The position numbers were made by a program, and so were the translations under genes. Positions 29,335-33,450 of a DNA stretch of 64,000 nucleotides are shown piece after piece (positions within the stretch are counted from its first letter, which is position 1; every line of letters starts with the position of its first letter). Source of the stretch: Acaryochloris sp. IP29b_bin.148 (GTDB taxonomy: Bacteria; Cyanobacteriota; Cyanobacteriia; Thermosynechococcales; Thermosynechococcaceae); NCBI RefSeq assembly GCF_028285565.1, contig NZ_JANQOY010000012.1, forward strand, positions 1 through 64,000, given 5' to 3'. The notes under the pieces are model-generated. The model was not told the DNA's origin and searched no databases. It was given only the letters and a program-made list of their open reading frames with translations.

Positions 29335-29852
29335 CACGTCGCGTTGTCCTCACAACTCCAAAACTGTGTTCTAAATACCCTTAAGCCATTGCAAATCTAG
29401 CTTTTTTAAACGTTTTTGGCACTTCCCCAACCCTAAATTTGCAGCCCAAAACAAGCTGTCTGGCAACAGTGCTTAAGATTATCTTTTCTTAACTTAAATA
29501 TAGTATAAGAAAGTACAGATTAAATCCTTTTTAGGTAAAGATACATAAAGTCTTAAAGACTTCCCTCTGATGAAAGAGAGCGATGGTAGTCCGCCAAGAT
29601 GTCCTATTCTCCAGTACTACACCAGAGATAGCCATGACATTCCTGGCTTTAAAGCATGGAAAACTTAGATTGCCAAACTGACATTTCAAGCGGATGGAGG
29701 TCACCTTAATAATTCCCTGATGTCAGACTTGAGCTTCAACTTGTCTCTCGCTGTTGTAAAAACCAAGATTTACCAGCTATAAACGCTACGAAGCATGGTA
29801 AAAACAAGCCAAGTGTAAGACATTGACCAATTGTCTGAGGAAGATCCAACGA
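29335..29852. promoter_or_regulatory. Divergent intergenic region with a 15-base palindrome
   Basis: The gap between the UbiB-family gene and the cyclase gene is AT-rich. It contains AAGTCTT-A-AAGACTT (29548-29562), a near-perfect palindrome with 7-base arms, and promoter-like TATAGTATAA (about 29499-29510). GAGGAAG (29837-29843) lies 9 bases before the GTG at 29853 and is taken as the cyclase ribosome-binding site. The palindrome may be an operator for either divergent gene. No ORF is supported in the gap. Confidence 0.35.
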
Positions 29853-31952
29853 GTGCTGAAGAAATTAAGTATTCAATCCAAGCTGACCTTAATGCTGTTG
29901 GGGGTCAGTGTTAGCTCTATATTAGTCATTGCCCTGATTGGCTATAACAGGGGCAAAGCGGCTTTAACTCGCCGGATTTTTCACCAGCTCACCAGTTTAC
30001 GGACAACTAAGAGCTATGAGGTGCGCTCATTTTTTAATCAACTCAATCGCCAAGTCCGCTTTGTGAGCGATGACCCTACCACCAAAGAGGCTATGCAAGC
30101 CTTTAAGCAAGCTCATAAAGCGTTAAATAGCCAAAAAATTCCGAGCCAATGGCAACAGGCCATTCAGACCTATTATCAGCAGGAATTTATTCGCCCCTTA
30201 GCGGCCAATATTGAGGGAGAACCCCAGGTTCAGACTTATTTACCCCTTGCTAATAGTGGTAGCTACTTGCAATATCACTACACGATCAAGACGCCCGACT
30301 TTGACCAAAAAGTCAAAATAGATGACCCAGGAGACGGGAGCAACTATACCCAAGTCCATCGGCAATATCATCCTGCGTTTCGATCGTTAGTGTCAGAATT
30401 TGCCTATGAAGATCTTTTTCTAATCGATCCTGAAACAGAGAAAGTGATCTATAGCGCCTATAAAGGAGTGGATTTTGGTACCGATTTAGCCTCGGGTCCT
30501 TATTCTCAAAGTGTTTTAGCCCAAGCCTTTCGTAAAGTGATCCAAGAGGGAGAACCTAATTTCGTCACGTTCACCGATTTTGAACCTTATCGTCCTTCTC
30601 ATAATCAACCGGCAGCAATCGTTGCTAGTCCCTTATTTGAGGGGGGCACGTTGATTGGCGTCATGGCACTGCAAATTAATATCAGTGACATTGACCAAGT
30701 GATGACCAATGGTCAACGGTGGCAAGAGATGGGATTGGGGAAAAGTGGTGAAACCTACTTAGTGGGGGCTGATTCTCTCTTGCGATCCAATTCGCGCTTC
30801 TTATTGGAGAATTCTCCTGATTATTTCCGAACCTTAATTCAAAAGGGTGTCGAACCCACAAAAGTGGAACGGATGCGACGGCAGAAAAATTCAATTTTGG
30901 AACAGGAAGTCAAAACGACTGCCGCCCAGCGGGCACTGCTAGGCAATTCTGGCATTGATATTATCGATGACTATCGTGGCGTTGCGGTATTGAGTTCCTA
31001 TGGCCCCCTGCAAGTAGAGGGTTCCGATTGGGCTATCCTCGCTGAGATGGATGCTGAAGAAGCCTTTGCGCCTATCACTGAACTGCAGAAACAGGTGCTG
31101 ATTTCTACCGCCATCTTAATCCTATTGATTACAGTCTTGGCCCTCTTCCTCTCTCGTTTGTTTGTTAAACCGATTCAATCGTTGATGGCTGGTTTCCATC
31201 GGCTTGGCGAAGGCGAGACAGATGTGACGGTTACCGTGAATTCTCAGGACGAGTTCTATGATTTGGCCGTTTGCTTTAATCAGATGGTCGCGAATTTATC
31301 CCAGAAAGCCCAGCTTTTAGAAAATCAAAGCCAGGAAAATGCTCAATTACTCTCTTGCATTCTGCCTGATCCCGTTGCTCAGCGCCTTAAAAGTGGTGAA
31401 GAACAAATTGCGGATAGCTATGCCAATGTCACGGTACTCTTTGCCGATCTAATTGGGTTTACAGACTTATCAGAAGTATTGCCTGCTAATGAAATTGTGG
31501 CTTTATTGAATGAGTTGGTGCGGGCCTTTGATGAAGCTGCTGAACGCTATGGGGTGGAAAAGATCAAAACCATTGGTAGTGGGTATATGGCGGTCTGTGG
31601 TCTGTCTGTTCCTCGACTAGACCATACCAAGCGGATTATGGACTTCGGCATCGAAATTACTCGGCTTGTGCAGCGTTTTAATCAAACCCACCAGACGGCT
31701 TTGCATGCTCGTGTGGGGATTAATTCAGGGTCTGTTGTGGCTGGGATTGTCGGTCGCAGCAAATTTATTTATGACCTGTGGGGAGATACGGTCAATATTG
31801 CTCATCGGATGCAAACTGCGGGTGAGGGCGATACGGTCCAAGTGAGCCAGTCTGTTTACGATCAGCTTGGAGATATTTACGAGTTTGACAATGGCCGCGA
31901 GGTAGAAATTAGCGATGAGCATAAACTACCTGCTTGGTTGCTCAAGATCTAG
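29853..31952 (+). CDS. Sensory adenylate/guanylate cyclase (Cache-HAMP-class III cyclase)
   Basis: This protein of about 699 residues has a membrane helix (about 11-33), a large extracytoplasmic Cache/PDC-type sensor with LFLIDPETEKVIYSAYKGVDFG, a second helix (about 415-435), a HAMP-type linker and a C-terminal class III cyclase domain. TVLFADLIGFTDL supplies the first metal Asp (about 532). YDLWGDTVNIAHRM supplies the substrate Asp and the catalytic Asn/Arg pair, and EKIKTIG supplies the adenine-type Lys. The second metal Asp, normally in GD(A/G)Y, is Ser576 here (IGSGYMAV), so catalysis may be weakened. GTG 29853 is favoured by its ribosome-binding site; TTG 29823 is possible. The MscS channel gene follows after 46 bases. 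Confidence 0.85.
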   Translation: MLKKLSIQSKLTLMLLGVSVSSILVIALIGYNRGKAALTRRIFHQLTSLRTTKSYEVRSFFNQLNRQVRFVSDDPTTKEAMQAFKQAHKALNSQKIPSQWQQAIQTYYQQEFIRPLAANIEGEPQVQTYLPLANSGSYLQYHYTIKTPDFDQKVKIDDPGDGSNYTQVHRQYHPAFRSLVSEFAYEDLFLIDPETEKVIYSAYKGVDFGTDLASGPYSQSVLAQAFRKVIQEGEPNFVTFTDFEPYRPSHNQPAAIVASPLFEGGTLIGVMALQINISDIDQVMTNGQRWQEMGLGKSGETYLVGADSLLRSNSRFLLENSPDYFRTLIQKGVEPTKVERMRRQKNSILEQEVKTTAAQRALLGNSGIDIIDDYRGVAVLSSYGPLQVEGSDWAILAEMDAEEAFAPITELQKQVLISTAILILLITVLALFLSRLFVKPIQSLMAGFHRLGEGETDVTVTVNSQDEFYDLAVCFNQMVANLSQKAQLLENQSQENAQLLSCILPDPVAQRLKSGEEQIADSYANVTVLFADLIGFTDLSEVLPANEIVALLNELVRAFDEAAERYGVEKIKTIGSGYMAVCGLSVPRLDHTKRIMDFGIEITRLVQRFNQTHQTALHARVGINSGSVVAGIVGRSKFIYDLWGDTVNIAHRMQTAGEGDTVQVSQSVYDQLGDIYEFDNGREVEISDEHKLPAWLLKI

Positions 31953-31998
31953 CCCCTTGGCTGCTGTACCTCTTTTTTGACGTCTTATCCGCGCAAGT

Positions 31999-33450
31999 AT
32001 GACTCCATCTCTTTTTCAGCAACCGTGGTTTCTCTGGAGCTGCGGGCTTATGGTGGGTTTCCCCTTCCTGATGCTGGTCTTAAATGAATCCATCGTGTAT
32101 TTGCAAAAGCAAGGGAAACCTCTTGTCCATACGCTGAGGATTTTACGAAATCTGGTATTACCCATTTTCGTTGCGTTTATTGTGCTAACGAAAATTATTG
32201 GGTTAGATACCGAGCAAACAGCCCTTCGCTTACTACAGACGTCGCTTTGGGTCTCTTTGATCCATGCTGCTTTGTCCTTTGTCAATGTATTGCTATTTGT
32301 AGAGGCGGGGGGAAATACCTGGCAGGCTCAGGTGCCGAAGTTACTCAGAGACTTAACTCGATTTTTCCTGATTCTGATTGGGACGGCTTTTGTTCTGTCT
32401 CTCGTCTGGAAAACAGATTTAGGCGGATTGTTAACGGCGCTGGGGGTGAGCTCGATTGTCATTGGTTTAGCCCTCCAAGATACGCTAGGTAATTTATTCT
32501 CAGGGATTGCGCTCCTGTTTGGGCGACCGTTTGTGATCGGGGATTGGCTCAAGTTTGGGGACACTGTGGGTAAGGTGATCGAAATTAACTGGCGGGCGGT
32601 CCATTTAATTACCCGTGACCAGGAAATGTTGATTGTGCCCAATTCCGTGTTAGCAAAGGAAGTGTTTTACAACTACCGCCGTCCCCAACCCTTGCATGGG
32701 GAACCAATGGAAGTAGGGTTCTCTTATAATGATCCGCCGAATAAAGTCAAGCGTGTTCTCAGGCAAGCAGCGCTAGAGACGCCGGGTGTTTTGTCTGATC
32801 CAGAACCTGTGATTCAGACAACTGCCTATGCTGACTCATCGATTAATTATTATATAAGGCTGTATTTACGGGACTATGAGCGGGTTCCCCAAATCCGAGA
32901 TGCCTTTATGACCCGGATTTGGTATGCGGCTCAGCGTCATCACTTAACGATTCCATTTCCGATTCGTACCCTGATTCATGAGCGACCGCCCAGGGAAGAG
33001 TTGAATGGGAGTAATCGTCGGGTGGTAGAAGAGTTGCGATCGCTCCCTTGTTTCATCGCCACCCGCTCAGAGATTTTGGAGCAACTGGTCACCAATGCTG
33101 AGTTTAAGTCCTTTGGCCAAGGCGAGCGGATTCTTTACCAAGGCCAAGAAGAGGTCAAACTGCACTTCTTACTGGCAGGACAAGTGCAGATGAAGGTGCT
33201 CAATTATGCGAATCGTGAACAAGAGGTATTAACGCTGTCCAAAGGAGACTTTTTCGGTGCAACCGCTCTGCTATCACAAGAACCCAGCTCGAATTCGGTG
33301 GTTGCCTTGAGTGATGTCGACGTGATGATCTTAGAAATAGAAGCGATGCAGGTGATCATCGATCGCACGCCCCAACTGGCTCGCGAGATGGATGAAATTA
33401 TTGAAGCCCGTCGGAAAGCGATCCACCTGGCCCAACAGGCTTATGCTTAG
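31999..33450 (+). CDS. MscS-family channel with C-terminal cyclic-nucleotide-binding domain
   Basis: This 483-residue protein has about four membrane helices in the first 170 residues. The MscS pore/beta signature follows (SSIVIGLALQDTLGNLFSGIALLFGRPFVIGDWLKFG…VHLITRDQEMLIVPNSVL). A CNB-like domain ends the protein (about 355-470: FKSFGQGERILYQGQEEVKLHFLLAGQVQM…GDFFGATALLSQEPSSNSVVAL). This is the bacterial cyclic-nucleotide-gated (bCNG) MscS architecture. In the phosphate-binding cassette the usual FGE…PR(T/S)A is FGA…PSSNS, so the ribose-binding Glu and phosphate-binding Arg are missing. It is encoded directly after the cyclase. Confidence 0.88.
   Translation: MTPSLFQQPWFLWSCGLMVGFPFLMLVLNESIVYLQKQGKPLVHTLRILRNLVLPIFVAFIVLTKIIGLDTEQTALRLLQTSLWVSLIHAALSFVNVLLFVEAGGNTWQAQVPKLLRDLTRFFLILIGTAFVLSLVWKTDLGGLLTALGVSSIVIGLALQDTLGNLFSGIALLFGRPFVIGDWLKFGDTVGKVIEINWRAVHLITRDQEMLIVPNSVLAKEVFYNYRRPQPLHGEPMEVGFSYNDPPNKVKRVLRQAALETPGVLSDPEPVIQTTAYADSSINYYIRLYLRDYERVPQIRDAFMTRIWYAAQRHHLTIPFPIRTLIHERPPREELNGSNRRVVEELRSLPCFIATRSEILEQLVTNAEFKSFGQGERILYQGQEEVKLHFLLAGQVQMKVLNYANREQEVLTLSKGDFFGATALLSQEPSSNSVVALSDVDVMILEIEAMQVIIDRTPQLAREMDEIIEARRKAIHLAQQAYA

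Follow-up and report, generated by a model that had tools for sequence, protein, structure and literature searches.

A receptor-type cyclase homologue and an MscS-family channel ending in a cyclic-nucleotide-binding (CNB) domain lie side by side in the window, the whole stretch of 64,000 nucleotides of Acaryochloris DNA analysed here, and both belong to a family of gene pairs for which degeneration of the nucleotide sites on both sides is, by alignment, a well-supported common trait. The loss of canonical chemistry in the window's own pair is likewise well supported by its residues, and it is unlikely that canonical cAMP signalling runs through the two proteins in this organism. We lean slightly towards the reading that the genes encode a dedicated receptor–channel module, with a pseudocyclase domain passing the signal, most probably through contact, to a pseudo-CNB domain.

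The cyclase gene occupies positions 29853..31952 of the forward strand and encodes a receptor-type class III cyclase homologue of 699 amino acids from a GTG start. An alternative TTG start upstream, at 29823, gives a frame of 709 amino acids in which Ser576 becomes residue 586; translation probably begins at the GTG (29853), because the frames of two Acaryochloris relatives (L131 and L132) open only from the preceding residue. The predicted protein begins with a first membrane helix and an extracytoplasmic dCache-like sensor (29880..31100, forward strand, limits approximate), for which the AlphaFold (AF2) model shows a helix at residues 7–72 and an alpha/beta domain. The Pfam family dCache_1 scores 37.6 bits here, below its cut-off of 45, and 45.3 bits in the relative L079. 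A HAMP domain (PF00672; 31146..31301, forward strand) and the cyclase-homology domain (PF00211, Guanylate_cyc, E 7e-49; 31413..31943, forward strand) follow, both well above cut-off. The mean pLDDT of the cyclase model is 87, and in a Foldseek comparison the predicted cyclase domain matches solved ones with TM values of 0.85–0.93. An active class III cyclase carries two metal-binding aspartates: the first is kept in the window (31446..31448, forward strand; Asp542 of the 709-residue frame), and the second is serine by alignment (Ser576 in GTG numbering; codon AGT, 31578..31580, forward strand). The lysine that would hold the triphosphate is also absent from its place. K582 and D651, the base-specifying Lys/Asp pair, are retained, as are the transition-state residues N658 and R662.

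After an intergenic gap of 46 bp (31953..31998), the channel gene (31999..33450, forward strand) encodes 483 amino acids. MS_channel_2nd and MS_channel_3rd both score above the Pfam cut-off, and the protein has the MscS pore and the beta/alpha-beta domain; the AlphaFold model (mean pLDDT 80) shows five membrane helices and an MscS fold, then a CNB fold. The five predicted helices span residues 9–175 (32023..32523, forward strand), the last one lining the pore according to the model and the MscS match, and the CNB-like domain comprises residues 340–480 (33016..33438, forward strand), where cNMP_binding (PF00027) reaches 53.2 bits against a cut-off of 27.5. Its phosphate-binding cassette SKGDFFGATALLSQEPSSNSVVAL (33238..33309, forward strand; cassette sequence of the window channel, FFGATALLSQEPSSNS) lacks both residues expected of a bCNG channel: Ala421 (33259–33261) stands in the Glu position and Ser430 (33286–33288) in the Arg position. 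The initial annotation, which gave the gene order, strand and gap, the replacement of the second metal Asp by Ser576 and the missing cassette Glu and Arg, was borne out on each of these points when the open reading frames and alignments were re-read. A missing metal Asp or cassette Arg would, as is general for these families, disable the cyclase and CNB sites. The cyclase domain of the window's lineage probably no longer makes cyclic nucleotide at a useful rate, and its channel's CNB-like domain appears to have lost its grip on cyclic phosphate. The window's genome encodes a second MscS-CNB channel (L010; G000:C233:3892-5040), which has an intact FGE...R cassette, FFGEISLLTGAPRTA.

A search with the channel alignment through one genome per species (~85,000 species) returned at least 80 loci. 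In a channel tree computed without the CNB columns, the window-type channels among the loci listed form a clade of 66, whose members come from the cyanobacteria and from at least three further phyla, an Acaryochloris MAG being the nearest named relative of the window. The cassette Arg is missing in all 66 of these listed channels, and two changes of the Arg state suffice on the whole tree. Sixty of the 66 have a dCache-HAMP-cyclase upstream on the same strand, mostly within 200 bp or overlapping and in one pair 4.5 kb away. Among the remaining six, the cyclase is encoded elsewhere in the genome in four Crocosphaera/Cyanothece and one Pseudanabaena, and L074 lies at a contig end; the orphan Crocosphaera channels are thus no proof that the cyclase is dispensable, and we rejected that idea. 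In G352 the channel and the cyclase are unlinked and both present, and the G352 match has an in-frame stop.

With the unlinked cases included, 17 of 292 cyanobacterial genomes carry a channel of the clade, and exactly these 17 also carry a cyclase of the family, so that no genome has one without the other. The count excludes G292, whose CNB channel is more distant (231 bits, with its N-terminal part left unmatched), and G323 (a sensor-HAMP match only). The Fisher value for this co-occurrence, 7e-28, is indicative only because related species are not independent; the unlinked pairs weigh more. Outside the cyanobacteria, pairs were found in MAGs labelled Gammaproteobacteria, Kuenenia (Planctomycetota) and Actinomycetes/Acidimicrobiales; in the actinobacterial phylum, matches came from 5 of 150 genomes, the query's own among them. 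Gene neighbours of the pair are conserved only inside Acaryochloris, and a wider operon was accordingly rejected. The earlier proposal that cyclase and channel are a real functional pair is supported, the pairing extends beyond this strain, and orthologues 85–88% identical retain both features, by which a chance or strain-specific mutation was rejected.

Some individual loci depart from this arrangement. In a Xenococcaceae MAG (L052:665-3406), sensor and HAMP run straight into the channel (from its residue 65 or thereabouts) in a single frame of 914 amino acids without a cyclase domain, and no further copy was found in that genome. This frame may be an assembly error or a real fusion; we set it aside as proof of direct contact because it comes from a single short MAG contig and because a cytoplasmic HAMP would meet a supposed outside loop. 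At L249:2604-3556, the cyclase gene is interrupted within its catalytic domain by a transposase-like insertion, and the downstream channel is intact.

Six active-site residues were read in 61 paired cyclase domains and in 59 unpaired ones, solely cyanobacterial cyclases from relatives of the window; the tree divides the two groups with full support. At least one of the six residues is lost in 55 of the 61 paired and in none of the 59 unpaired domains, a contrast that may be inflated because the paired cyclases have diverged further from one another (mean identity 0.50 versus 0.60). Among the cyclases close to listed channels of the clade, the figure is 54 of 60. Of the paired domains, 19 lack the first metal Asp, 20 the second, 8 the Lys, 7 the base Asp, 19 the Asn and 50 the Arg, compared with 0 for every residue in the unpaired group. 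With all 59 controls intact, a general looseness of cyanobacterial cyclases was rejected. On the cyclase tree, a minimum of 3 to 6 changes is needed per residue, a count that does not polarise the changes and by which repeated loss and regain are formally indistinguishable.

What is lost depends on the lineage. In the Acaryochloris neighbourhood the second metal Asp has become Ser; in most other cyanobacteria the transition-state Arg is missing (Ala, Asn or His in Pseudanabaena, Leptolyngbya and others), and the Synechococcus/Cyanobium cyclases have Lys for Asn in addition. The Crocosphaera-type cyclase reads NSTNKF at the six positions and keeps none of the residues in open frames of 712 amino acids, and the actinobacterial paired cyclases have a DRNDNQ-like site. 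A complete DKDDNR site is found in Nostoc, Hassallia, Tolypothrix, Microcoleus, Tychonema and an Oscillatoriales MAG, with the channel still lacking its Arg, and within this group the cyclase Arg becomes Lys or Ser between near neighbours. Two genomes (G374 and G431) hold second copies of the pair (L251 and L253) with cyclase sites almost fully eroded; in G431 a complete cyclase copy stands beside the eroded one. Whether the substitutions in the two proteins co-occur had been raised as a question from the window. The two exact substitutions are not what goes together: the cassette Arg is lost in the whole clade, the loss of Glu is patchy and the cyclase losses are lineage-specific; Ser576 and the loss of the cassette Glu are found together mainly near Acaryochloris. 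Across the pairs we found no link between Glu loss and loss of the second Asp: L024 and L059 combine IGSGYM with FGE, and L083 and L086 show the reverse. The accompanying view, that with both nucleotide sites degenerate the window's organism is unlikely to run an ordinary cAMP loop through the pair, agrees with our own. Of the two alternatives it offered, a different signal molecule or a direct relay, the complete erosion seen in some lineages would favour contact, although the sequences alone do not decide between them.

Between Acaryochloris species dN is lower in the catalytic domain (0.042–0.049) than in the sensor (~0.10) or the HAMP domain (0.10–0.19), and dN/dS is ~0.02–0.03, a rough figure given saturated dS. 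The paired cyclases share the signature residues N535, C592, S595, L599, K603, R604 and W705, which are absent or rare in unpaired ones; the cluster 592–608 together with 705 is a candidate contact surface.

The co-inheritance of both genes despite the lost cAMP-site residues points to control of the channel by the receptor that does not involve ordinary cAMP. As a single mechanism, contact accounts best for the lineages in which nothing is left of the cyclase's nucleotide site and both genes are nevertheless kept. In such a module, the dCache domain would sense a ligand outside the inner membrane and HAMP would transmit the change in the sensor to the dimeric cyclase-homology domain. The latter, as a pseudoenzyme, would serve as the switch by touching the CNB-like domain of the channel, directly or within a shared complex, and this contact would bias the opening of the MscS pore. 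We infer the catalytic inactivity, the physical contact, the gating and the ligand of this module, which probably arose from a real circuit of cyclase and cAMP-gated channel. The mismatch in symmetry between a cyclase dimer and a channel heptamer counts against this reading, as do the Popeye domains, which are of the CNB type and bind cAMP without the Arg, the base-specifying Lys and Asp retained in most members and the complete sites in several Nostocales and Microcoleaceae members. More broadly, the pairs may constitute an undescribed class of modules in several phyla, in which the receptor gates the channel by direct contact between pseudocyclase and pseudo-CNB domain and a messenger circuit has become a hard-wired relay; this we put forward tentatively, at somewhat less than an even chance. 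We found no published account of such paired degeneration in the open literature.

The main rival to the contact relay is an altered nucleotide circuit, in which little cyclic nucleotide would be made, or ATP bound as a switch, and the remodelled cassette would read the nucleotide differently. This rival, whether as non-catalytic binding of ATP or as a nucleotide signal that is weak or altered, draws its strength from the Lys/Asp pair: the base-recognition Lys is kept in 53 and the Asp in 54 of the 61 paired cyclases, so nucleotide binding or slow catalysis may persist. Many cyanobacterial members have lost the Arg alone (DKDDNA), and DKDDNR is complete at eight loci, some of uncertain independence. 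However, two-metal catalysis of the usual sort requires a metal ligand that is missing from the window's cyclase, as is the triphosphate Lys, and the pair is retained in Crocosphaera, in Acidimicrobiia and in second copies whose cyclases are nearly siteless (NSTNKF, NRSESG, NNTKYS). Moreover, the Arg is R, K or S among close relatives, as though it were unimportant, and on balance we consider this circuit unlikely. It is less probable still that some other small molecule is the ligand of the CNB-like domain and that the receptor, as a separate partner, has a different target: CNB folds can change their ligand, as in NtcA, which senses 2-oxoglutarate, but the joint inheritance of both genes would be left unexplained.

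We give very little credence to a heterodimeric cyclase, in which the window domain would be a C2-like half and the metal site would come from another cyclase. The window retains the residues of the C2 type (Lys, Asp, Asn, Arg), and the C2 domain of AC9 aligns to it at IGATYMA. However, the other cyclase domains of the window's genome are distant and of a different subfamily, and no close paralogue was found there; other members have lost the C2-type Arg instead, so that a single scheme fails for the family, and the channel cassette is degenerate regardless. Decay, with the function of the circuit lost and both genes drifting, can be dismissed almost entirely: broken copies exist (the transposon insertion at L249, an apparent frameshift at L069 and the in-frame stop in the G352 match), but full-length frames across phyla, co-inheritance and a catalytic domain under strong purifying selection argue against it, and the conservation of that domain contradicts it for the window's lineage.

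Annotated by their domains, the two genes would be called a cAMP maker and a cAMP-gated channel; on the evidence of the family, this label probably misdescribes most members. Should the contact relay be real, a pathway with a diffusible messenger has turned into direct receptor–channel contact, living intermediates of the change survive (complete, one residue lost, fully eroded) and an MscS-type channel has gained a chemical input from the cell exterior.

Among known systems, the bCNG channels are members of the MscS superfamily with a CNB domain (Caldwell et al. 2010 and Malcolm et al. 2012, as cited in PMC4560390). The window channel resembles them in that a CNB fold comes after the MscS pore and cytoplasmic domain, but differs in its cassette without Glu and Arg, the clade-wide absence of the Arg and the receptor dedicated to it. 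Receptor-type class III adenylyl cyclases (dCache-HAMP-cyclase) are alike in architecture and fold, and it is the channel-paired members whose site is mostly incomplete. The C2 domains of mammalian adenylyl cyclases, with IGS/A-YMA, likewise lack the second Asp, but there the C1 half supplies one. Outside the window's clade, the channels among the loci listed have FGE...R cassettes nearly throughout, and cyclases with a complete site adjoin intact-cassette channels with overlapping frame limits (L110, L114, L117) or within 1.5 kb (L089, L095, L098, L100). These loci are candidates for genuine cAMP-gated channel circuits, and the canonical cAMP loop thus probably exists, in another branch. A CHASE2-cyclase was present in all four canonical-looking loci tested (L095, L098, L110, L117). 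Such CHASE2-cyclase and MscS-CNB pairs, from Planctomycetota, Fermentibacteria and Eisenbacteria, resemble the window's pair in that a cyclase gene precedes the nearby CNB channel in the same orientation (in Planctomycetota the genes are 0.7–1.4 kb apart), but differ in the CHASE2 sensor, another cyclase subfamily, a complete active site and an intact FGE...R cassette. Mycobacterial Rv2435c is probably a receptor cyclase with non-canonical residues that adjoins the MscS-CNB gene Rv2434c, and the two may be a pair of the window's kind; the actinobacterial pairs of the window type in our own set are L245–L248. Rv2435c is described as a mycobacterial dCache adenylate cyclase (PMC4822843), and both genes are named in a 2004 survey (PMC2447327). 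If they are indeed of the same kind, an example of the module has been visible for two decades.
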